Source of the DNA: an uncultured Bacteroidales bacterium
GTDB lineage: Bacteria > Bacteroidota > Bacteroidia > Bacteroidales > WCHB1-69
Direction of reading: 5' to 3'
Length of the DNA: 64,000 nt
Assembly (NCBI GenBank): GCA_900315705.1
Contig: ONAB01000001.1
Span: forward strand, 79,178 to 143,177
This document shows positions 6,436-62,002 of the stretch, one piece after another; position 1 is the first letter of the stretch; each line of letters opens with the position of its first letter. Made by a program: the position numbers and the translations under genes. A model generated the notes under the pieces. It was not told the DNA's origin and made no database searches. It saw nothing but the letters and a program-made list of their open reading frames with translations.

Positions 6436-8697
6436 ATGAAAGAGTTTTTTCTGAAAAATAAAAAAAACATTTGGTTTTGGTTGTTCGTAATCATAACGGT
6501 CGCCACTTTGTTTATACTGCCTTTAATGAGTCTTGATGCCGGGAACAGCGGTGACGAGGATGGATTCCAGTGGCCATACGCAGAACAAATCTATAATTAT
6601 TATGCCACAGGTGGCAAAGACACCACTTGCCTTCAAAATGAAGATATGGGAATGCACGGTGGTTTTTTTGATCAATTCACCTATGCTCTCACCCAATGGT
6701 TTGACGTTGATAATTACAGCCAATTAAGACATATTTGCAATTCCATTTTTGGATGGATATGTGTGTTGTTTGCAGGCTTGTTGGCTTATAAGCTGGGGGG
6801 ATGGAGGGCAGGTGTGTTCACTCTGCTATTGCTCTTTTTCTCGCCGAGATTCCTAGGACACTCTTTTAATAATCCTAAGGATCTAGTATATGCCTCTATG
6901 ATGATGGCGGGCCTATATTATGTTTTTAGTTTTATCAAAGAATATCCGCAACCGAAAATATCCACATCGATTAAGATAGCGGTCTTCGCCGCACTGGCTA
7001 TTGTCTCCCGTTTTGCCGGTTTTTTGCTGTTCGCTTATCTGGTGCTATTCCTTATTATATATCATATAATAATCAATAAAAAGCAGAGTTTATCTAAAAG
7101 TAATGTCAAACTTATTGGAAAATACGCATTGTTTGTCATCGCTATCGGGTTAGTTACATTTGGACTTTGTATTGCGTTATGGCCCTATATAATGTCTTCA
7201 CCAATAAAAACCATGGTGAAGATCTTTACGGGGATGTCTCATTTCAGTGTCTCTCTCCGCCAGCTCTTCGAGGGCACGATGCAGTGGTCCGACTACCTGC
7301 CGTGGTACTATACCCCCAAATATATCCTTATTACCATCCCCATCGCGGTCATTCTGGGCGTCATCCTCTTCTTCGTCTTCTGCTGGCGCAAGAAAGAAGA
7401 CCGTTTCTGGGCATTCTTCCTCTTCTTCACCTTCTTCTTCCCTGTGTTCTGGATTGTGTTCACCAAGGCCAACGTCTATGGCGGCTGGCGCCACGCTATG
7501 TTCGCTTACCCGCCTATGGTGGTCGCCGCCGGCTGGGGCTTCGATACGCTGGTGAAATGGGTGGAGGCAAAATTGGGAATTATGAATGAAGAATTGAGAA
7601 TGGAGAATGGGGATGCAAATGATGGTGGAGATGGAGCGCGCCCCGTCTCTACGAAGGGCATCATCGTCAATGTTGCCAGCGTGGTGATATTGCTGGCGCT
7701 GCTCATCGGCCCCATCCGCCATATCATCGCCAACCACCCCTACGAATACGTCTATTTCAACGAGCTGGCAGGCGGCACCAAGAAGGCCCTCGGCCAATAT
7801 GAGCTCGACTACTACTACCACTCCACGCGTGCGGCTTCCGAATGGGTCATTGCCAATGCCGAGCCCAAAGCCGACGGCTCCAAAATCCGGGTTGGCACTT
7901 GGCACACCGCCTCCGTCAACTATTTCTTCCGCCACGACACCGCCCGCTTCCAGCCCACCTTCATCCGCTGGTACGAGAAGGAGAACTCCGACTGGGACTA
8001 TGCCATCTTCACTGTCACCGGCATTGCGCCCGAATATCTCCGTAGCCCCTATTTCCCGCCAAAGAACACGGTCAAGACCATCGATGTGGACGGCGTGCCC
8101 ATCTGTATCATCCTTAAACGCCAAGACAAAAATGATTTCCTGGCCGCGCAGATGAAGAACGACAATACCAAACTCGACTCCGCCATCGCGCTGTATCAGC
8201 AGGCCCTTGCCGTGGATCCCGACAATATCGGCGCCCTCCTCGGAATCGGTGAGTGCTATGTGCGCACCAATCGTCCCGACAGCGCCCTCCTCTACCTCGA
8301 CCGCTATCACAAGATTGACCCCGAAGCAGAAATGGCCAACTATATGCGGGCGTATGCGTATGTGTATAAGCAAGATGCCAAAACCGCCCTCGATATTCTT
8401 CTTGATATCGAGGAGCAGAATCCTAAATATGCCGGCGCTTACCAGCTTGCCATCCAACTCTATCTGCAGCAAAAAGACTTTGTCAATGCCAAGAAGCAGT
8501 TTGTGAAGGTGATGGATGTGGATCGCTTCGACGAATCCTTTGTGCAGCTCTGGCTCCAGTACAACCAAATGCAGAACATTGACCAGAATACGGCCTACAG
8601 GCAACTGTACAAGTCAATGGCCAAGAGTTTCGAGAAGCGCGGCAAGAAAGAGGAGGCGGCACGCTTCCGTGAACTGGCAGGAATAAAAAGCAAATAA
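6436..8697 (+). CDS. GT-C-type (GT39/PMT-like) membrane protein with C-terminal TPR domain
   Basis: The 753-residue protein has about ten membrane segments. The first extracytoplasmic loop carries an acidic motif (NSGDEDGFQWPYAEQI), as in GT39/ArnT-type glycosyltransferases that use polyprenyl-phosphate sugars. After about residue 400 follows a soluble periplasmic part, and residues about 590-745 contain tetratricopeptide repeats (ALLGIGECYVRTNRPDSALL and similar). It closes the operon with the DPM1-like enzyme, which probably makes its donor. Two oddities: base composition changes sharply from AT-rich to GC-rich near 7230, and residues about 380-395 (GIMNEELRMENGDANDGG) derive from an interspersed repeat inserted in frame. 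The acceptor is unknown. Confidence 0.72.
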   Translation: MKEFFLKNKKNIWFWLFVIITVATLFILPLMSLDAGNSGDEDGFQWPYAEQIYNYYATGGKDTTCLQNEDMGMHGGFFDQFTYALTQWFDVDNYSQLRHICNSIFGWICVLFAGLLAYKLGGWRAGVFTLLLLFFSPRFLGHSFNNPKDLVYASMMMAGLYYVFSFIKEYPQPKISTSIKIAVFAALAIVSRFAGFLLFAYLVLFLIIYHIIINKKQSLSKSNVKLIGKYALFVIAIGLVTFGLCIALWPYIMSSPIKTMVKIFTGMSHFSVSLRQLFEGTMQWSDYLPWYYTPKYILITIPIAVILGVILFFVFCWRKKEDRFWAFFLFFTFFFPVFWIVFTKANVYGGWRHAMFAYPPMVVAAGWGFDTLVKWVEAKLGIMNEELRMENGDANDGGDGARPVSTKGIIVNVASVVILLALLIGPIRHIIANHPYEYVYFNELAGGTKKALGQYELDYYYHSTRAASEWVIANAEPKADGSKIRVGTWHTASVNYFFRHDTARFQPTFIRWYEKENSDWDYAIFTVTGIAPEYLRSPYFPPKNTVKTIDVDGVPICIILKRQDKNDFLAAQMKNDNTKLDSAIALYQQALAVDPDNIGALLGIGECYVRTNRPDSALLYLDRYHKIDPEAEMANYMRAYAYVYKQDAKTALDILLDIEEQNPKYAGAYQLAIQLYLQQKDFVNAKKQFVKVMDVDRFDESFVQLWLQYNQMQNIDQNTAYRQLYKSMAKSFEKRGKKEEAARFRELAGIKSK
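7570..7611 (+). repeat. Interspersed AATTNNGAATGAAGAATT-type repeat inserted in frame
   Basis: This segment within the GT-C/TPR gene is AT-rich in a GC-rich stretch and reads as overlapping GAATTATGAATGAAGAATTG and AGAATGGAGAATG units. It matches, imperfectly and in reverse complement, the sequence at 58102-58139, inside the leader of an RHS protein. Similar strings occur in intergenic DNA of many Bacteroidota. Here it is translated without breaking the frame. Confidence 0.6.
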
Positions 8698-53908: not shown

Positions 53909-54613
53909 ATGAAATACAATCGCATTTTATTAAAGTTGAGTGGCGAATCGCTGATGGGTGACGACGGATACGGCATACAGTACCCGATGGTACGCCATTT
54001 CGCCTCCGAGATCCAGTCGGCAGTGGCACAGGGCGTGCAGGTGGGTGTGGTCATCGGCGGCGGCAACATCTTCCGCGGGGTGCAGGGCTCTTCCAAGGGC
54101 TTCGACCGCCGGCAGGGCGATCAGATGGGTATGCTGGCCACCGTCATCAACGCTATGGCTGTGCAGGCTGTGCTGGAAGAGATGGGCGTCAAGGCCAAGG
54201 TGCTCACCGCAATGGCCATTGAGGGCGTGAGCGAGAAGATCTCCTGGCGCAAGGCCGTGGAGCTGCTGGAGTCCGGCTATGTCGTCCTGATGGGCGGCGG
54301 CACGGGAAACCCCTTCTTCACTACCGACTCGGGTGCCGCGCTGCGCGCTGTCGAGATTAGGGCCGACCTGCTGCTCAAGGGCACCCGTGTGGACGGCGTC
54401 TATACCGCCGATCCCGAAAAGGACCCCACTGCCACCAAGTACACCAACCTTACCTTTGACGAGGCCTACCGCAACAACCTGAAGATTATGGATATGACGG
54501 CATTCACGCTCTGCAAAGAGAATAAAATGCCCATCTATGTATATGACGCCAATCAGCCCGGCAACCTGCTTAAGGTGCTGCAAGGCGAACCCATCGGAAC
54601 CCTATTGCAATAA
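53909..54613 (+). CDS. pyrH: UMP kinase
   Basis: PyrH (234 residues) phosphorylates UMP to UDP. It belongs to the amino-acid kinase fold with YNRILLKLSGESLMGDDGYG at the N-terminus, VVIGGGNIFRG (about 50-60), and MGGGTGNPFFTTDSGAALRA (about 129-148), including the TTD substrate motif. It is followed within six bases by a 2TM protein gene and then frr, the common pyrH-frr pairing with an insertion. Confidence 0.97.
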   Translation: MKYNRILLKLSGESLMGDDGYGIQYPMVRHFASEIQSAVAQGVQVGVVIGGGNIFRGVQGSSKGFDRRQGDQMGMLATVINAMAVQAVLEEMGVKAKVLTAMAIEGVSEKISWRKAVELLESGYVVLMGGGTGNPFFTTDSGAALRAVEIRADLLLKGTRVDGVYTADPEKDPTATKYTNLTFDEAYRNNLKIMDMTAFTLCKENKMPIYVYDANQPGNLLKVLQGEPIGTLLQ

Positions 54614-54619
54614 TATATT

Positions 54620-55030
54620 ATGGAAGAAGACAATAACAAGACTGTCGAGACTACTCCCGACATTAGCGTACAAGAGGAGAGCAAGATGCAGACCGTGGCC
54701 AACAGCCGCGTGCGTTTCAAGATCCACATCGGCCTCTTTGTCATTGTTAACCTGCTCCTTTGGGTGCTCTATTTCACCCTGTTCAATGCCATTGTCACGG
54801 ACTTCACCATCAAATGGGCTATCCTCAAGGTCTTCATCTGCATCACGGTGGTCTGGCTGCTCGTGGTCATCCTCCACTACTGCATCGCGTTCAAGTGGAA
54901 CAAGACATTCGTGGAGAAGGAGCTTGGCCGCATCCGCAAGCAGCGCAGCAACCAACTCAAGGAACTGGAGCGCCTGAAAGCCCAGATTGCAGCCTCCAAG
55001 GCCAATCAAGATGCACAAAAACAAGAATAA
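54620..55030 (+). CDS. 2TM domain-containing protein
   Basis: The 136-residue protein has the 2TM domain (about 25-110). RVRFKIHIGLFVIVNLLLWV is the first helix, a short hydrophilic turn follows, then VFICITVVWLLVVILHYC and the conserved FKWNKTFVEKELGRIRKQ. The C-terminus is a coiled-coil-like charged helix (about 105-135). Some 2TM domains are fused to histidine kinases in Bacteroidota; the stand-alone form has no known role. Lying between pyrH and frr, it is probably co-transcribed with both. Confidence 0.88.
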   Translation: MEEDNNKTVETTPDISVQEESKMQTVANSRVRFKIHIGLFVIVNLLLWVLYFTLFNAIVTDFTIKWAILKVFICITVVWLLVVILHYCIAFKWNKTFVEKELGRIRKQRSNQLKELERLKAQIAASKANQDAQKQE

Positions 55031-55054
55031 TAATCATTTAAGAGCATAATAAAG

Positions 55055-55612
55055 ATGGATACACAACAATGTCTCAAGCAAACGAAGGAGAATATGAACT
55101 CCACCGTCGCTTTCTTTGATAAGGAATTACAGAAAATACGCGCCGGCAAGGCCTCCCCGCAAATGCTGGAGGGCTTGAAGGTGGACTATTACGGCAACCC
55201 GACCCCCGTGGAGCAGGTGGCCAACATCAACACGCCCGACGCCCACCAGATTGTCATCCAACCCTGGGAGCGCAATATGCTGCCCGTGATCGAGAAGGCC
55301 ATTCTGGCTGCCAACATTGGTCTGACGCCGCAAAATAATGGCGAATTCATCCGCCTGGTAGTGCCCACCCCGACCGAAGAGCGTCGTAAAGAGCTGGTCA
55401 AGAAGGCCAAACAGGAGGCGGAGCAGGCCAAGGTCAATGTTCGCAACATCCGTCGTAACGCCAATGACGAGGCCAAGAAGCTGAAAGATGACGGCACACC
55501 CGAGGATGAGGTGAAGAAACTGGAGGCCGACATCCAGAAGGCCACCGACGAGGCTATTGGCAAGATCGACAAGATTATGGAGGCCAAGGAGAAGGAGATA
55601 ATGACCGTTTAA
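55055..55612 (+). CDS. frr: Ribosome recycling factor
   Basis: RRF (185 residues) splits post-termination ribosomes with EF-G. Signatures are FDKELQKIRAGKASPQMLEG (about 20-39), VDYYGNPTPVEQVANINTPD, and the C-terminal helix pairs RRKELVKKAKQEAEQAKVNV and NIRRNANDEAKKLKDD. Length is standard. Confidence 0.98.
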   Translation: MDTQQCLKQTKENMNSTVAFFDKELQKIRAGKASPQMLEGLKVDYYGNPTPVEQVANINTPDAHQIVIQPWERNMLPVIEKAILAANIGLTPQNNGEFIRLVVPTPTEERRKELVKKAKQEAEQAKVNVRNIRRNANDEAKKLKDDGTPEDEVKKLEADIQKATDEAIGKIDKIMEAKEKEIMTV

Positions 55613-55657
55613 TCTGACAATTATTCACTTTTTTTATAATCACAAAACCCTAAAACT

Positions 55658-56035
55658 ATGAATATTCCCGAGAATCTGAAGTATTCCGCCGATCACGAAT
55701 GGTTGAAAGTAGATGGCGACGTCGCTTACGTCGGCATTACCGCCCACGCTGCCAATGAGCTGGGTGACATCGTTTTCCTTGACATCACCTCTGTGGGCGA
55801 GACCCTCGACAAGGACGAAGTCTTCGGCACCATCGAAGCCGTGAAGACCGTGGCCGACCTTATGCTGCCTGTGGGTGGCGAGGTGCTCGAGTTCAACGAG
55901 GCCCTTGAAGCCAACCCCGCTTTGGTGAACAGCGATCCTTACGGCGAAGGCTGGATCGTGAAGATCAATATGACCGACCCCGCCCAAGTGGCCGAGTTGA
56001 TGGACGCTGCCGCCTATACGGCTATGCTGGGATAA
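55658..56035 (+). CDS. gcvH: Glycine cleavage system H protein
   Basis: The 125-residue lipoyl carrier has [17 protein letters not shown]-type start ([20 protein letters not shown]), and the lipoylation loop [16 protein letters not shown] with the acceptor lysine in EAVK (about residue 64). It shuttles the aminomethyl group among the P, T and L proteins. The other gcv genes are absent here. A bidirectional terminator follows, inside the 90-bp inverted repeat. Confidence 0.97.
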
Positions 56036-56051
56036 TCTTTCCACTATCCAT

Positions 56052-56141
56052 AAAAAAAGCGACCTTTTCGGGTCGCTTTTTTTTGTTGTTGGATTAGTTG
56101 CAAGTCCAATTTAGAACTGTCATAAAAAGGGGATGTTTACA
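56052..56141. repeat. Outer inverted repeat, left arm, with bidirectional terminator
   Basis: This 90-bp arm is the reverse complement of 59644-59733, apart from small indels in GTTGTTGG and one substitution. It contains a perfect hairpin AAAAAAAGCGACC/GGTCGCTTTTTTT (56052-56084), which can terminate gcvH and the leftward immunity gene. The adjacent 48-bp block begins ATTAGTTGCAAGTCC and ends GGGGATGTTTACA. No transposase or target duplication is seen next to it. Confidence 0.92.
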
Positions 56142-56206
56142 TATTTCTATCCTTTTTACGTTTAATAAAGAAACCACCATATCCTGCATGATACACATTT
56201 ATATTT

Positions 56207-56620
56207 TTAATGTACGTAAAGCTTGTTTAACAAGTCGTCATACCCTTTTTCTTTAAGCTTGGAAATTTTACAGTTTCGGACTCTGTTTCTCAAGAGTTGG
56301 TAATCATTCCATTTAACAACAACTATATCGCCACTTACGGTTACATTTGGCCAATCATGGTCGTCATAGTCACCCAATTTTTTTCTAAATAACATTGAGT
56401 CTGTAAGATATATTTCATAAGCATCTCCGTCATAAACACCTCCATGATAAATCTGATATGTTTCAACAAATAAGTTATCACCAATTGTTCTGCTATTAGA
56501 ATAAACTATATCTTTATCATTTGAACTATGGGTGTACAATATGAATATAAATAGTACCCCAAGTAATGAAACCCAAATAAGTAACAATACTAAAATAAAA
56601 TATAAAAAGAATTTTCTCAT
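56207..56620 (-). CDS. Candidate immunity protein for the type 44-like RHS toxin (single-TM)
   Basis: This 137-residue protein has one N-terminal membrane helix (FFLYFILVLLLIWVSLLG...FIFIL, about 4-28). A soluble domain follows with VETYQIYHGGVYDGDAYEI, DYDDHDWPNVTVSGDIVVVKW and a charged C-terminus. The ATG at 56620 is two bases after the toxin stop codon, so the two are translationally linked. Very low GC and no housekeeping similarity suggest transfer with the toxin tip. Immunity is inferred from position and size; no family was recognised. The in-frame extension upstream (to 56683) lies in the toxin gene and is unlikely. Confidence 0.6.
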   Translation of the reverse strand: MRKFFLYFILVLLLIWVSLLGVLFIFILYTHSSNDKDIVYSNSRTIGDNLFVETYQIYHGGVYDGDAYEIYLTDSMLFRKKLGDYDDHDWPNVTVSGDIVVVKWNDYQLLRNRVRNCKISKLKEKGYDDLLNKLYVH

Positions 56621-56622
56621 AA

Positions 56623-57510
56623 TTATTGAATTGTTTTTTTTGCCGCATTCATCCCTTTTGTGTTGAATCTGAACTCTCGCCATCTGTCACCGGACTTTAT
56701 GTTAAGTGGACTTATGAAACCATTTAGTCTCCATAATCCTTCTGCTACATGTTCATTGTCGAACGCTTTGTATGTTTCAGCTCCTCCAGCCCCTTTCCAC
56801 AACATATATTTAGAAAAACCCGCAATTACACCTGTATATCCAGCGTGAAAATTACCAACATCCGCCGCTGTAGCTCCCGAAAAATATTCACATGAAAAAG
56901 TAGTATATTTACCTTTGTCATGTTCCCAAGCAACACCCCAAATAGTCTTTGTGTTACTTTTCAAATCCCAATCTCCTGTTGGCTTCACCTTTTCGAAATA
57001 AGACAGATAACGGTCAACAATTCCCATCTCTTTCATTTTACGAGCATATTGGGCACTATTCTCTAATTTGTTACCAAAAAAAGAGGATTGATCTATATTA
57101 CCACCTAATTCACCAACCTTGATACCGTTTCCTCCCGTATTATTTAGCCGCTTCTGTTGTGCCTCTATATCCGCCTTTGTAGTTCCGTCTTTATGTAAAT
57201 ATACGCTATTGTCCCCATCGTTAAAATGAGCTATAATATTCCCATATTTGTCTATATGCTCAGAAATCTCCTCCCCATTCGGATCCACCAGCCTCACCGG
57301 GTTGTTACTACAGTAAACGTAGTTTGATTGATGAGGATATTTCCCACTCATCGGGTCGACGCTCAGCCAGATGCTTAAATCACTGCTGTAATACCTTGCT
57401 CCAAAGTAGCTTAAGCCTGTTTCCGCGTCCTTTTCTTTGGCGGAGAAGGTGTGATAATCCGCAAAGAGCATCGGAATCGGGGAAACGGTATGTGTAAAGT
57501 GTTGGTTCAT
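56623..57510 (-). CDS. Orphan RHS-core protein with polymorphic toxin type 44-like tip
   Basis: This 295-residue protein begins with a 17-residue leader, then a truncated RHS-associated core (about 20-80): TFSAKEKDAETGLSYFGARY, SIWLSVDPMSGKYP and NYVYCSNNPVRLVDPNGEE. The tip (about 130-295) carries GDWDLKSNTKTIW and DVGNFHAGYTGVIAGFSKYM, which resemble polymorphic toxin type 44; I give this family link moderate weight. The upstream YD-repeat shell is absent, so it is a displaced tip, but it has its own TATTTTTG promoter and ATG (57510; a TTG two codons earlier is possible). It is followed at two bases by a small membrane protein gene. Confidence 0.72.
   Translation of the reverse strand: MNQHFTHTVSPIPMLFADYHTFSAKEKDAETGLSYFGARYYSSDLSIWLSVDPMSGKYPHQSNYVYCSNNPVRLVDPNGEEISEHIDKYGNIIAHFNDGDNSVYLHKDGTTKADIEAQQKRLNNTGGNGIKVGELGGNIDQSSFFGNKLENSAQYARKMKEMGIVDRYLSYFEKVKPTGDWDLKSNTKTIWGVAWEHDKGKYTTFSCEYFSGATAADVGNFHAGYTGVIAGFSKYMLWKGAGGAETYKAFDNEHVAEGLWRLNGFISPLNIKSGDRWREFRFNTKGMNAAKKTIQ
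57268..57453. repeat. RHS-core inverted repeat, left arm
   Basis: The coding sequence of the RHS core on the minus strand matches 58143-58328 on the plus strand. The first 68 bases (from CACACCTTCTCCGC) differ at one position and the next 50 at about seven; similarity then falls but continues to AATGGGGA. It forms an inverted pair around a 689-bp centre. Confidence 0.88.
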
Positions 57511-57529
57511 ACACAATTGTTAGATGAGG

Positions 57530-57537
57530 CAAAAATA
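57530..57537 (-). promoter_or_regulatory. -7 promoter element TATTTTTG of the leftward RHS toxin
   Basis: The complement reads TATTTTTGCCTC, 19 bases upstream of the ATG at 57510. It shows that the truncated RHS protein is probably expressed as a gene in its own right. Confidence 0.55.
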
Positions 57538-57897
57538 GTATTTTTTTTGATATGTGAACGCGCCGCCACTCCCCCACACCATCGCTCTCCGCACGCGTAG
57601 AGACGCCACATTGTGACGTCTCTACATATGTGGGGTTACAGAGAAGGAAGAAGGATGTTCCTTCGGAACACGTCTGGATGAGATATGACAATGTGATAGA
57701 ATCGGCCTCGAAGAGGCCTTCCTTTTTGTAACACCACACGAAGCGTAGCAAGTGTGGTGACGGGATGCGTGGCGGATACCTGTCGCACCGCAGGTGTCGC
57801 TTGCCCCGAAGCACTGCGCTTTCACGATGCGAAATGGAGGCTCTTTGCAATATGTCATCTGTTTTCACCCTCAGGAATATCATTGCCATTTTTTTCG
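57538..57897. repeat. Central intergenic repeat mosaic of the RHS island
   Basis: This non-coding stretch of about 360 bases is built of hairpin-forming repeats. GTAGAGACG...CGTCTCTAC (57597-57625) is an almost perfect palindrome; others are TTCCTTCGGAA, GGCCTCGAAGAGGCC, and CACCACACGAAGCG...AAGTGTGGTG. The last resembles the stem-loops in the intercistronic repeats at 9497 and 13989. A frame open on the plus strand from 57765 through this region is repeat-derived and starts upstream of any promoter, so I do not count it as coding before 57927. Confidence 0.65.
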
Positions 57898-57905
57898 TAT
57901 TTTCG
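57898..57905 (+). promoter_or_regulatory. Near-consensus -7 element TATTTTCG of the rightward RHS toxin
   Basis: TATTTTCGCCACC differs from TAnnTTTG at one position and lies 21 bases upstream of the ATG at 57927. It may be weaker than the leftward TATTTTTG. Confidence 0.4.
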
Positions 57906-57926
57906 CCACCTCCAAAACCACCGCCG

Positions 57927-59006
57927 ATGAACCGTTGCCGTACATACTGTCTTATGAATCCCCTCACGGGGATTTGGCCTGCGTGCGGGGACGCCATCAG
58001 CTACAGATATGCATCCCTTAACGGGGATGAGGGATGCAACAACCAACATCTTGGCGCACATCATGTTTCCGCCGCAACGCCGCCACGATGTGACGACGCT
58101 ACCACAATTCTTCATTCTCCATTCTTAATTCTTAATTGGACTCACACCTTCTCCGCGAAAGAAAAGGACGCGGAAACAGGCTTAAGCTACTTTGGAGCAA
58201 GGTATTACAGCTCCGATTTGAGCATCTGGCTCAGCGTCGACCCGATGAGTGACAAATATCCGTCTTTGAGCCCGTATGTGTACTGCGCGGACAACCCGGT
58301 GAAGTTGGTGGACCCGAATGGGGAAGAGGGAATTGTTGTTTCTGGTGGAGAATATAATGGTAACAGATATAAATACAATTTTATTGAACCTGCAATCAAT
58401 CGTTTGAAAGAATTGAAATCCGCAGGCGGAGATGAATCTATAACTTGGGCCGTTATGACGGCAGGTTATTCAGAAGAAGATATAGCAAAGTTTCAATCGA
58501 TTGCAAATGATTTAGGAGTGCAATTTCAGGCTATAGGTTCTGCAGAGGAATTCACTAATTATCTGAATTCAAAAGATATTAATTCCCCATTTTTGTCTGA
58601 TGCACGAACTGGGGACAAGATAACTAGTTTGACTGTTTTTGGACACGGATTCGTTGGATCTGTTGAATTTGCTTACAATCAAGACAATCAATCTTCATTC
58701 TCTTGGGGAATGGAAAGCATAGTGAAACTCCATCAAGGAGCCTTTGAAAATGCAATTATAGACTTATATAGTTGTAACTCTGCAACAGATGTGGAAGGGG
58801 GAAAATCGTTAGCTTATACGTTAGCCATAATGACAGGTTCTACCGTAACAGGATTTAAGGGGCAAAGTACATATTCGGAAATGAATAAAGGACAAGGTTT
58901 TATGGCCAAATGGAATCGTTGGTTAAATGGTTTTAACTCTAACGGAAGCGTTACTTTACCAAAGGCAGGTACAGGAGCAAGGAAAAAAATATTCGTACAT
59001 AAATAG
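57927..59006 (+). CDS. Orphan RHS-core protein with putative caspase-like peptidase tip
   Basis: This 359-residue protein has a repeat-derived leader (1-71, Cys/His-rich, including ILHSPFLILNW from an interspersed repeat). The RHS core spans about 73-134 (THTFSAKEKDAETGLSYFG, SIWLSVDPMSDKYPSLSPYV), and a unique tip about 135-359. In the tip, ITSLTVFGHGFVGSVEF places H240 after a hydrophobic strand. IIDLYSCNSATDVEGGKSLA places C283 after another, followed by LAIMTGSTVTGFKG. This His-Gly/Cys arrangement about 43 residues apart resembles clan CD (caspase-like) peptidases such as DUF4347/C80-type domains. The start is uncertain because no ATG lies between 57954 and the RHS core. The next gene is a candidate immunity lipoprotein. 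Confidence 0.65.
   Translation: MNRCRTYCLMNPLTGIWPACGDAISYRYASLNGDEGCNNQHLGAHHVSAATPPRCDDATTILHSPFLILNWTHTFSAKEKDAETGLSYFGARYYSSDLSIWLSVDPMSDKYPSLSPYVYCADNPVKLVDPNGEEGIVVSGGEYNGNRYKYNFIEPAINRLKELKSAGGDESITWAVMTAGYSEEDIAKFQSIANDLGVQFQAIGSAEEFTNYLNSKDINSPFLSDARTGDKITSLTVFGHGFVGSVEFAYNQDNQSSFSWGMESIVKLHQGAFENAIIDLYSCNSATDVEGGKSLAYTLAIMTGSTVTGFKGQSTYSEMNKGQGFMAKWNRWLNGFNSNGSVTLPKAGTGARKKIFVHK
58102..58139 (-). repeat. Interspersed AATTAAGAATGGAGAATGAAGAATT repeat in RHS leader
   Basis: The complement reads AATTAAGAATTAAGAATGG followed by AGAATGAAGAATTGTGG. It ends immediately before the RHS core and is the same family as the in-frame insertion at 7570-7611. Confidence 0.6.
58143..58328. repeat. 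RHS-core inverted repeat, right arm
   Basis: This is the partner of 57268-57453. It encodes the RHS core of the rightward toxin. Both arms have the same length (186 bp), and beyond them the tips share no similarity. Confidence 0.88.
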
Positions 59007-59053
59007 ATGTGTTAATACTGTATTCCATACGGATTCAAAAAAATCTATTGCAA

Positions 59054-59563
59054 ATGAAATATATTATGAAAAAAATAATGAAGATAGTGTTGTTTATAGT
59101 CTGTGGCCTTTCACAATGTTCCTGTCATCACATCAATATCGTTCAAAATAATAAATTAGGGAAAAGTTTATTTCAATACAGTTCTGTGGAAGACTACTGT
59201 AGTAAAAGAATAGAAGGGAATTGTGGTGATAATTTATGGATAAAGCTAACTTTTTTAAATAATCCATACAATCTTAATGACAACAACATTGTGTCAATCT
59301 ATGTTAATAACAATCTTGTTTATAGAGGTATATTCAAGAACAGTATTGATTTAAAAGGGAATCCTGATGTCCTATTTAAAAATGATAAAAGAATGATTTT
59401 CAAAATGGAAATTCTTACAGACAAAACGAAGAAAACAATCTGGGCACATAGATTCACAAGTAAAATTATTTTCACTTGGAAAAAGGAGTATCATATTGTT
59501 TACTGTGGTTTTCTTCCTACAAACGAAGATGTGGAAAAAATCTTTTTTATTCCGCAATTTTAA
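59054..59563 (+). CDS. Candidate immunity lipoprotein for the caspase-like RHS toxin
   Basis: This 169-residue protein has a hydrophobic signal KIVLFIVCGLSQCSC with cysteines suitable for lipidation. A beta-rich domain follows (NNIVSIYVNNNLVYRGIFK, RMIFKMEILTDKTKKTIW) and ends in KEYHIVYCGFLPTNEDVEKI. It begins 47 bases after the toxin stop (ATG 59054, alternatively 59066). It is very AT-rich, unlike the flanking housekeeping genes. The immunity role is inferred from position, size and envelope targeting; no family was recognised. Confidence 0.6.
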   Translation: MKYIMKKIMKIVLFIVCGLSQCSCHHINIVQNNKLGKSLFQYSSVEDYCSKRIEGNCGDNLWIKLTFLNNPYNLNDNNIVSIYVNNNLVYRGIFKNSIDLKGNPDVLFKNDKRMIFKMEILTDKTKKTIWAHRFTSKIIFTWKKEYHIVYCGFLPTNEDVEKIFFIPQF

Positions 59564-59643
59564 CGATTCTTTGCAAAAAATATAAAAATTTCACATCTAC
59601 TACTCGCACATATACCCCGTTGTACATACAGAACGCCACAAAG

Positions 59644-59733
59644 TGTAAACATCCCCTTTTTAGGACAGTTCTAAATTGGACTTGCAACTAATACACCCAA
59701 CAAAAAAAGCGACCCGAAAAGGTCGCTTTTTTT
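59644..59733. repeat. Outer inverted repeat, right arm, with bidirectional terminator
   Basis: This is the reverse complement of 56052-56141. It holds the hairpin AAAAAAAGCGACC/GGTCGCTTTTTTT (59702-59733), which can terminate the rightward immunity gene and the convergent dipeptidase gene. Its inner end is TGTAAACATCCCC. The loop orientation (CGAAAA versus TTTTCG) confirms inversion rather than direct duplication. Confidence 0.92.
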
Positions 59734-59751
59734 GTTGGCGGTCATATCGTG

Positions 59752-61503
59752 CTATTTCGCTTCGATGTTCTTGCCGCAGTCATCCACAATCATCTTGTAC
59801 CAGTATTGCGGATATTCGGGCTGGTCGGGGAATTCGCATTGCGGAATCTTGGTGTCGGTGACTTTGAATTTGCCGTTCTCCTCCTTCTTCACGTTGCCGT
59901 CGTTGTATTTCACGAGCAGGTAGATGAACAGGTCGTTCCAGGCCTGGCACACCTCGTTGGCGGCTTTCAGGGAGTAGTCGTTGATGATGGCTTGTGCCTT
60001 GTCGGGGTTGTTACGCTGGAGGTCGGCCAGCTCCTTGCTCATCGTGTTGGTCTCTTTGATGAAGCGGTTTTCGAAGAGGTCCTGCTTCTCGTTGACGTGC
60101 TTGATCATATCGCTGTAGCGGCTATAGACGAAGTTGCTAACCTTGGTGAAGGTCCAGAAGGCGGCGGTGGGGGAGTATTCGACCATAGAGCCGTTGCCTT
60201 CGGCGTACTGGTGGGGTATCTTGTTGATGCCGCAGTACATCGGCACGTAGCAGGTGCTTGCGGCGTCATCGACGCTGAACCAGAAGATGCCGCCGACCTT
60301 GTTGGGCATCCAGCTGCGGCATTGGGCCACGAAGGAGAAGCCGGTCTGCTGGGTGGCGGTGGCGCGCTCGTGGATGTACTCCTTACCGTTGTATTTCCAG
60401 TTCATAGGTCTCCAGCGATACGGGCACTTGTAAGGGCCGGCGCCGAGGTCCTTGGTCATATCCATAGAGGTGCCCTCGTAGTGGTCGCGCATAGCCTGCA
60501 TCATAAAGCGGACATCGATTTTGTTCTTGTCGGCGGGTTTGATCCAGAGCGGGAAGCGGTGTTTGAGGTTGTCACCGCGGGCATAGTCCTCGTATTGGGC
60601 CATCTCGGCGGGGTTGCAGCGGTTGAAGAAGGCCCACACGCGGGCTTCGCAGCCGCGGGCGGCACCGAAATCGACGGGCGCGTAGGTGTCGCAGAAACTG
60701 AACTCGGCATCCGGGGCCTTTTTGGGGTCGGCGGGATAGAGACCCTTCAGTCTGGCGAAGGAGATGACATCGTAGGAATAGACGGTCTCGATGCCGGGCA
60801 GGAAGATCTTGTCGAGTTCCTTGCTGGTGATGGAGGTCTTGCCGTCGCGCAGCGGGAAGGTGGTGATGCGCGACTGGTTGGCGTGGCCGCAGACGTAGCC
60901 GTCGGGGATGCGGCGGGCCACCCACACGGCGCCGTTGCTCCAGCCCTTGACCACCTTGCCCTTGGCGTCGAGCATCTTCTCGCCCTTGCCGATGAGCTCC
61001 ATAATCCAAGCTTCGTTGGGGTCAACGATGGAGAAGGACTCGCCCTCGGAGGCGTAGCCGTAGGTGTCCATCAGTTCGGCGATGACCTTGATGGCCTCGC
61101 GGGCGTTCTTGGCACGCTGCAGGGCGATGTAAATCAGGGAGCCGTAGTCGATCATTCCCTGGCCCTGTTCCAGTTGCTTGATGCCGCCGTAGGTGGTCTC
61201 GCCGATGGCCAGCTGCCACTCGTTCATATTGCCCACCACAGAGTAGGTGTGCGCCACCTGGGGGATCTGGCCGAGCAACTTGCCCGTGTCCCACTCGATG
61301 ACATCCATCATCGTGCCGGCAGGATAGTCCTTGGCCGGGCGGTAGTAGAGTTCACCGTAAAGCGAGTGCGAGTCGGCGGCGTAAGTGATGAAGCAGGAGC
61401 CGTCTTTGCTGGCCCCTTTCGTGACAATGAAGTTGGTGCAAGCCATCGTGGTGCCATAGGATAGCAGACCGATGAGCAGCGTAAGCAGAAAAGTTTTTTT
61501 CAT
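59752..61503 (-). CDS. C69 family dipeptidase
   Basis: The 583-residue N-terminal nucleophile peptidase has a signal peptide (KKTFLLTLLIGLLSYGTTMA) directly before CTNFIVTKGASKDGS. The mature protein would therefore start at the catalytic cysteine (about C22). Other family marks are ITYAADSHSLYGELYY and WMAQCRSWMPN-like FVAQCRSWMPNKVGGIFWF. It hydrolyses dipeptides in the periplasm. ATG 61503 begins the signal peptide; the open frame upstream covers the promoter. It is monocistronic. Confidence 0.93.
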   Translation of the reverse strand: MKKTFLLTLLIGLLSYGTTMACTNFIVTKGASKDGSCFITYAADSHSLYGELYYRPAKDYPAGTMMDVIEWDTGKLLGQIPQVAHTYSVVGNMNEWQLAIGETTYGGIKQLEQGQGMIDYGSLIYIALQRAKNAREAIKVIAELMDTYGYASEGESFSIVDPNEAWIMELIGKGEKMLDAKGKVVKGWSNGAVWVARRIPDGYVCGHANQSRITTFPLRDGKTSITSKELDKIFLPGIETVYSYDVISFARLKGLYPADPKKAPDAEFSFCDTYAPVDFGAARGCEARVWAFFNRCNPAEMAQYEDYARGDNLKHRFPLWIKPADKNKIDVRFMMQAMRDHYEGTSMDMTKDLGAGPYKCPYRWRPMNWKYNGKEYIHERATATQQTGFSFVAQCRSWMPNKVGGIFWFSVDDAASTCYVPMYCGINKIPHQYAEGNGSMVEYSPTAAFWTFTKVSNFVYSRYSDMIKHVNEKQDLFENRFIKETNTMSKELADLQRNNPDKAQAIINDYSLKAANEVCQAWNDLFIYLLVKYNDGNVKKEENGKFKVTDTKIPQCEFPDQPEYPQYWYKMIVDDCGKNIEAK

Positions 61504-61552
61504 AGACAATGTATTAGTGTTTAATAAAATTTCCAATTTTGAAACGTAGGTG

Positions 61553-61560
61553 CAAAAATA
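61553..61560 (-). promoter_or_regulatory. -7 promoter element TATTTTTG of the C69 dipeptidase
   Basis: The complement reads TATTTTTGCACC, 49 bases upstream of the ATG at 61503. Confidence 0.6.
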
Positions 61561-61600
61561 CACAATAATTCCAGAAAAATGCCACGAAACTGAGTTTAAC

Positions 61601-62002
61601 CTACAATTCCTGACAAATATTAATCATCTTATCCAACAATGCTTTCACCATCGGCAAATACTGTTGGATTTCTTCTTTGGTGACATCCACAAAGTCTTCA
61701 TAATCACCTTCTTGTCGTAATGAGAATAATTTTCTGATCAGTCGGATGTCTTCTGTTGACAATAAATTTTGTTGTACAAGATGAAGGCTTATCATAGCAA
61801 TCACGCCCGTATGAGTGTGGGCAGACAATCCTTTCTTAATCAAAATTGCCGTAGAAGCATAAAATAAAGCGTAATATAAGCGATTGGCCGCAATGTTCCA
61901 TAACCCAATTGCCGACACCTTTTCCGCTTCATTAATGGCATTTTGTGCTTTTTCAATACGGTAATTCACTACCGCAACTCTTTCTTCTTCAGACAAACTC
62001 AT
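61601..62002 (-). CDS. HEPN domain protein (toxin half of MNT-HEPN pair)
   Basis: This 133-residue all-helical protein has the HEPN core: AANRLYYALFYASTAILIKKG (split around R41-type Arg and the aromatic YYALFYA), SAHTHTGVIAM, and LFSLRQEGDYEDF with a DY motif near the end. HEPN proteins paired with minimal nucleotidyltransferases form type VII toxin-antitoxin modules. In these the HEPN RNase (R-x4-6-H) is silenced by AMPylation. The strict R-x4-H motif is not obvious here, so toxicity is uncertain. Its start overlaps the MNT gene end by four bases (ATGA). Confidence 0.85.
   Translation of the reverse strand: MSLSEEERVAVVNYRIEKAQNAINEAEKVSAIGLWNIAANRLYYALFYASTAILIKKGLSAHTHTGVIAMISLHLVQQNLLSTEDIRLIRKLFSLRQEGDYEDFVDVTKEEIQQYLPMVKALLDKMINICQEL

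Follow-up and report, generated by a model that had tools for sequence, protein, structure and literature searches.

The window analysed here is a stretch of 64,000 nucleotides from an uncultured Bacteroidales bacterium (assembly GCA_900315705.1, contig ONAB01000001.1, positions 79,178 to 143,177), and our subject is a small island in it, located between gcvH and a gene of the C69 dipeptidase family. We consider that the island is probably a pair of ordinary orphan RHS toxin–immunity cassettes, placed head to head between these two genes; its shape is unusual, but its kind and its parts are ordinary. An earlier note on this DNA had proposed that RHS cassettes are bounded by two universal elements, a 5′ core and a 3′ tail, the latter bringing its own terminator. 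What had seemed new about the island can be put down to the scar of a transposon and a terminator native to the site: the tail is identifiable as the final 44 bp of an IS3-like insertion sequence (IS), and the terminator as the native gcvH/C69 terminator of the host. For comparison we used 41 congeneric genomes, and the named relatives of this bacterium are mostly gut and rumen assemblies. Below, G000 denotes the window's own genome, labels such as G028:C62 give genome and contig among the congeneric genomes, and labels such as L062 denote fetched stretches.

The chromosomal flanks are gcvH (55658–56035, forward strand), present in 41 of the 41 congeneric genomes, and the C69-family dipeptidase gene (59752–61503, reverse strand; family matches). 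These genes are convergent, and the two RHS units between them are divergent. The left orphan RHS gene (56623–57516, reverse strand) consists of a truncated core (Rhs_assc_core TIGR03696, E = 9.7e-17) and an Ntox44 tip (PF15607, E = 9.9e-9), both above their family cut-offs; it is followed by a candidate immunity gene (56207–56620, reverse strand) with an N-terminal hydrophobic or membrane segment, as judged by eye. The right orphan RHS gene, given as a mechanical open reading frame (ORF; 57765–59006, forward strand), comprises a leader, a truncated core (TIGR03696, E = 1.7e-16, above the cut-off) and a tip with a weak DUF4347-like match (E = 1.1e-4, under the cut-off). Comparison of this right tip with solved structures by sequence gave a best match of only E = 0.016, and its single-sequence structure model had a mean pLDDT of 48.5 and was not used for a fold search. 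Downstream lies the right candidate immunity gene (59066–59563, forward strand), whose start, judged by eye, resembles that of a lipoprotein. The ORFs and the TIGR03696 matches confirmed the earlier description of two truncated RHS genes pointing outward, each with a small downstream gene, and its coordinates were right. The claim that the tips and the candidate immunity genes of the two cassettes are unrelated was also borne out: in tblastn, the left and right tips did not match each other, nor did the left and right downstream genes.

A search of positions 54000–62000 for inverted repeats recovered the shared ends that had been described. Within the cores it found one repeat of 120 nt (57335–57454 and 58142–58261, 93% identity) and a second of 54 nt (57268–57321 and 58275–58328, 80%), and at the outer ends one of 90 nt (56052–56141 and 59644–59733, 93%). 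The left core arm (57268–57454, reverse strand) and the right core arm (58142–58328, forward strand) aligned at about 84–85% identity over about 187–188 bp. The longest exact inverted matches were 54 bp in the core, 32 bp in the terminator and 29 bp in the IS end. The 90-bp outer block is a composite of IS end, linker and terminator, the last with a hairpin that is palindromic in its own right.

RHS cores were found at 342 places in 38 of the 41 congeneric genomes, counting matches at E ≤ 0.001, some of which are under the family cut-off. The window's own genome has 19 such places, 13 of them above the cut-off, on contigs C3, C4, C5, C12, C18, C25, C31 and C32. The earlier note had suggested looking for a full-length rhs gene elsewhere, and two long genes were found in this genome: one of 3139 aa with SpvB, TcdB_midN and RHS repeats, and one of 2028 aa with SpvB, RHS repeats and an Ntox23 tip. 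Each unit of the window has a 5′ RHS core, a variable tip and a codirectional small gene, and the RHS shell lies only elsewhere in the genome. Because the long rhs genes are located elsewhere, we regard the window pair as ordinary orphan RHS cassettes with candidate toxin tips and candidate immunity genes; the earlier assignment to this class is thus upheld by cores above the cut-off, tips, partner genes and the distant long genes. By analogy with the Rhs and contact-dependent inhibition (CDI) literature, the cassettes would probably act as immunity genes and as spare tips for the long rhs genes.

Other RHS pairs share the head-to-head layout, but among the five pairs found in this layout only the window pair has matching outer ends. 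In a set of 155 of the 342 places, made up of the listed rows of the genus search and the rows of the own genome, 3 of 57 neighbouring pairs within 5 kb were head to head. When the count was repeated with 91 cores from 27 fetched stretches, 5 of the 63 pairs were head to head, the rest being tandem and none convergent. The five are the window pair and those in G004:C3, G004:C42, G063:C51 and G006:C43. The other four show inverted core repeats and, in part, spacer repeats, and inverted-repeat searches recognised no matching outer ends in them.

The identification of the tail rests on copies elsewhere. The left copy of the 44-bp IS end lies at 56098–56141 (forward strand) and the right copy at 59644–59687 (reverse strand); it represents the right end of the element, with the stop codon of the transposase and the terminal inverted repeat. 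The copies in G001:C59 (L062) and G026:C264 (L064) run inward into the C-terminus of an integrase-core transposase. In L062, the repeat TGTAAACATCCCC occurs at each terminus (positions 7525 and 8121) of an internally deleted element of 597 bp, and the transposase fragment matches rve_3 (E = 1.9e-25). An upstream piece has a weak HTH_Tnp_1 match under the cut-off (E = 0.0068), possibly from a helix-turn-helix (HTH) ORF. From the rve_3 and HTH domains and the general features of the family, we take the element to belong to the IS3 family. All copies inspected were remnants, with no intact element among them, and the flanks of the internally deleted element in L062 showed no evident target-site duplication.

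A model of the right end detected 10 strong places (E < 1e-5) in the 41 genomes. Eight of the ten had served to build it, so that only G029:C51 and G000:C3 lie beyond its training sequences, and blastn had already found both before the model search. A further 13 weaker rows (E = 1e-4 to 0.05) were left uncounted; among them, G019:C44, G029:C45 and G018:C22 resemble a related but different element. Five of the ten strong places adjoin RHS loci: the left and right ends of the window, G028:C62, G000:C3 and G029:C51. The other five (G000:C5, G001:C59, G001:C27, G026:C264 and G019:C94) have no RHS core in the fetched 3.8 to 15 kb, although contig ends lie near the places in G000:C5, G001:C27 and G026:C264, so RHS genes may be located just beyond; G026, an assembly that is 68% complete, gave no RHS match at all. 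The earlier note had itself named a tail that occurs without an RHS cassette, or as the end of an IS, as evidence against its proposal, and both were found here. Of the five IS ends at RHS loci, four are at the 3′ end of a cassette; the fifth, in G029:C51, follows the 3′ end of another reading frame and precedes a core by about 0.5 kb. With 5 IS ends beside RHS loci and 342 core places, the tail is no general feature of RHS ends.

The terminator has an equally local origin. The proposed search for empty gcvH–C69 junctions was successful: in 7 of the 50 C69 loci examined, gcvH directly follows the C69 gene in convergent orientation with a single hairpin between them, and in two of the seven (UBA1176 and RGIG8237) the stem is the same GCGACC/GGTCGC stem as in the window. 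We therefore rejected the idea of a cassette-borne terminator, because the empty sites carry a single native copy. In the window, the left hairpin (56052–56083; fold z = −6.0) keeps the gcvH-side flank, and the right hairpin (59702–59733; fold z = −8.7) keeps the native C69-side flank GTTGGCGGTCA. Between the left hairpin and the IS truncation point is a linker (56084–56097) consisting of a GTTGG-like native C69-side flank and ATTAG, and a comparable junction is present in the right copy and in G028:C62. In the right hairpin the stem is perfect over 18 bp and extended by CCAAC/GTTGG, since its cassette side now carries CCAAC, which is complementary to the native GTTGG. CCAAC at this position would be the expected trace of an inverted copy fused at the hairpin.

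Both window cassettes also occur in other species, and there they lack the outer block. G028:C2 holds the right cassette at 93.4% identity over 1502 bp (window 58141–59642), with a single base left between the match and the IS end at 59644. Beyond it there is no IS end and no terminator, and the IS-end model had no match in that stretch. G013:C47 holds the left cassette at 90% as far as 4 bp beyond the immunity stop codon (window 56203), again without IS end or terminator. The tail was therefore rejected as a part of the cassette, being absent from both copies. In each case the toxin is kept together with its candidate immunity gene, which for the right cassette is a homologue behind the same tip. 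The expectation that other cassettes would carry both ends held in one case, G028:C62, which has an unrelated tip at the same site, and failed for the copies in G028:C2 and G013:C47. In the window, a 53-bp fragment (56142–56194, reverse strand) sits between position 56203 and the left IS end; it is identical (53/53 bp) to the interior of an unrelated gene of 231 aa in G027:C57.

The comparison with G028:C2, from a sister species, also bears on the proposal that cassettes are swapped, immunity gene included, by homologous recombination between universal ends. From 58592 to 59168 the two sequences differ by 4 mismatches in 577 bp (99.3% identity; the limits were chosen after seeing the mismatches). 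The whole tip is 98.1% identical, whereas the core is 88.2%, the immunity gene past its first 100 bp 88.9% and the stretch after the gene 79.0% identical. The backbone genes of the window and G028 show 87.8% (frr), 83.9% (gcvH) and 85.2% (pyrH). The 577-bp tract looks like a recent interspecies exchange within the tip and the start of the immunity gene, and it supports the swapping of tips by recombination. Its 3′ edge, however, is inside the immunity gene and not at the tail; recombinational exchange thus stands as part of that proposal, and the tail as its boundary does not.

The left immunity gene has a further relative in the window's own genome. A DNA copy 94% identical to it, without its toxin, is at G000:C22:264926–265339 (L313:2427–2840). 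A head maturation protease gene (phrog_94, E = 4.9e-47) lies about 2.5 kb away from this copy and a phage-type primase about 5 kb away; neighbouring ORFs had no family matches. Apparently, the copy is an orphan RHS immunity gene carried by a prophage. A shared 3′ block after homologues of the left immunity gene was considered and rejected, since the picture was mixed: one flank is common to G000:C22 and G027:C57, and elsewhere only scattered fragments were seen. In G027:C57, a different small gene precedes the 95%-identical downstream sequence. Gene-start fragments of the form M-A-K/D-S-S-T-R-R-V-T-I-Y-I, broken at differing points, were also observed in or near RHS loci, at L262:9837 (reverse strand), L277:8587, L067:12292 and L314:2007.

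These data suggest a history of the site. An IS3-like element would have lain beside the native terminator and decayed to its last 44 bp. G028:C62 has a different cassette, with a DUF6973 tip (E = 7.1e-13), at this gcvH junction, and its IS truncation point and terminator are those of the window. Because this truncation junction is common to G000 and G028, the half-site, in which a cassette abuts the IS end on the gcvH side, is probably older than the split of the two. Later, in the lineage of G000, the block of terminator, linker and IS end may have been copied in inverted orientation to the C69 side, most likely by recombination or template switching at the palindromic terminator and the IS ends, and the second cassette would have arrived with the inverted block or afterwards. 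In addition, tips pass from one species to another through recombination, both in the core and in the tip/immunity region, as the identity tract shows for the right cassette. At the same junction in G004, two contigs (L258:1–104 and L259:1–79) end between gcvH and C69 in related sequence, TATAGGTCA..TGCGGGCT, in opposite orientation. This sequence is neither the IS end nor RHS, and is perhaps another insertion sequence at the same place.

The IS-end arms of the window are 98% identical and the core arms 84–85%, which indicates that the block was duplicated recently and that the cassettes were not. An inverted duplication of a whole cassette was rejected on this ground. The left core is also closer to a core on C31 (87.1%) than to the right core (83.9%), and the right core is 93.5% identical to the same C31 core. 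A composite transposon was likewise rejected, since the IS termini point inward, their truncated sides face outward, and no intact IS ends are present at the outer borders.

Several points weigh against this history. No intermediate of the inverted duplication was found, and the G028 assembly lacks the C69 side of the site; the best C69 relative in it has only 44% identity, and no close orthologue occurs. The core arms are far more diverged than the IS-end arms, so the second cassette must have come separately or have been replaced. The orientation of the terminator loop varies among copies and hence gives no direction. Finally, homologous exchange alone leaves unexplained why the outer end of the IS remnant is the joining point of three different cassettes.

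Another reading is IS-driven adjacent deletion or inversion, in which a solo IS end, served by transposase in trans, would repeatedly have removed or flipped the DNA next to it in a former cassette array, so that new cassettes came to abut the IS end. We regard this as a possible mechanism, distinctly less probable than the reading above but not exclusive of it, since it could have operated within that history. In three cassettes the junction coincides with the IS terminus or is at most one base away; the stop codon of the immunity ORF in G028:C62 is supplied by the IS end; and the left junction contains the 53-bp fragment of another gene. However, the copies inspected include no intact IS, so that any such activity must be past, and this process by itself makes no second terminator.

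Alternatively, the dead IS end and the palindromic terminator could form a homology handle at which cassettes were repeatedly docked and swapped whole. The same block is joined by three cassettes (window left, window right and G028:C62), and 5 of the 10 strong IS-end places are beside RHS loci, against a genome share of RHS cassettes of roughly 0.5%; this enrichment is a rough estimate, because the copies at the gcvH site were treated as one event and because 1.5 kb per cassette and 2.6 Mb per genome were assumed. Nevertheless, the block is absent from the other known places of both window cassettes and so does not move with them; it is found with only three cassettes and at one chromosomal site; the IS ends of G000:C3 and G029:C51 have other truncation points and no such terminator; and the observed exchange tract stops inside the immunity gene. 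We therefore consider whole-cassette docking unlikely. Slightly less likely still is its extended form, in which the dead IS end and host terminator serve as a recombination port at one chromosomal site in at least two species and an inverted copy of the port holds two cassettes head to head.

A third alternative is that two strain variants of one half-site were joined head to head during assembly. The genome assembly is in 47 contigs, and contigs of G028 and G004 break at this very junction. Short-read misassembly of the island is unlikely, however, because the longest exact inverted matches are only 54, 32 and 29 bp. Both arms differ from each other throughout, the middle (57555–57885) matched nothing else among the fetched loci and thus offers no repeat to join by, and head-to-head RHS pairs also occur in the four other contigs named above. 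Overall, an artefact of this kind seems very improbable. Least tenable is the earlier model, in which the 5′ core and a terminator-bearing 3′ tail are both universal: both ends are common to the three cassettes at this site, but the tail is recognised as an IS end (by the rve_3 match above), the terminator as native to gcvH/C69, and both window cassettes occur elsewhere without either.

Returning to the pair of orphan cassettes, another repeated element lies upstream of the right core. This hairpin-bearing leader repeat (57888–58121, forward strand) has a double hairpin with ATCCCC..GGGGAT repeats; across the genus, many truncated RHS cores have a copy of it no more than about 260 bp upstream. 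The leader pattern gave 45 matches in 373 kb of RHS loci and 0 in 688 kb of other loci. With a stricter pattern, 6 of the 7 matches in the own genome were on the RHS-cassette contigs C12, C25 and C31 and one was on C20, and genus-wide, among the matches listed, some were on contigs with no RHS core listed. The leader was therefore rejected as an RHS-specific element and is treated as a repeat resembling repetitive extragenic palindromic (REP) sequences that is enriched at RHS loci. No Rfam family was found at the island, except for one match under its gathering score. At and beyond the right end of the window there is a cobalamin riboswitch (L070:10041–10231, forward strand; E = 2.3e-22, over the gathering score).

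The tempting idea of a universal RHS 3′ tail with its own terminator is thus removed, and the island becomes a concrete record of the movement of orphan cassettes, with a recent exchange of a tip and the start of its immunity gene, an IS scar at the edge and a duplicated host terminator. If the docking of whole cassettes were true, it would offer a simple route to assemble immunity repertoires away from the toxin gene. As in IS3-family insertion sequences, the element at the edge has an integrase-core transposase, terminal inverted repeats and possibly an upstream HTH ORF (match under the cut-off); unlike intact members, it is represented by remnants only. Among the papers found on rhs orphans, mostly from open journals, none describes in its title or the beginning of its abstract an inverted cassette pair with arms of IS end and terminator. 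According to the text available of one report, orphan CDI/Rhs modules consist of displaced 3′ tips and immunity genes, their arrays are associated with genes for transposases and integrases, and recombination is possible between an orphan and a full-length gene upstream (PMC4927057). The window pair resembles the orphan rhs-CT/rhsI and cdiA-CT/cdiI modules in its displaced tips with immunity genes, but differs from them, as far as that text describes them, in having no long rhs gene on the stretch seen, in its head-to-head arrangement and in its flanking inverted copies of IS end and host terminator (PMC4927057). It shares the order of toxin and then immunity gene with polymorphic toxin cassettes, for which the available portion of the source mentions no shared 3′ block (PMC3482391); the window needs none either. 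Replacement of a tip together with its immunity gene is described in the accessible parts of three reports (PMC4927057, PMC3482391, PMC5361080). In the last of these, again on the part available, the displacement of effector–immunity modules in the type VI secretion (T6SS) clusters of Vibrio proceeds by homologous or homology-facilitated exchange and leaves retained immunity genes. The window is similar in these respects, and differs in that the long rhs genes of this genome carry SpvB/TcdB-type domains.

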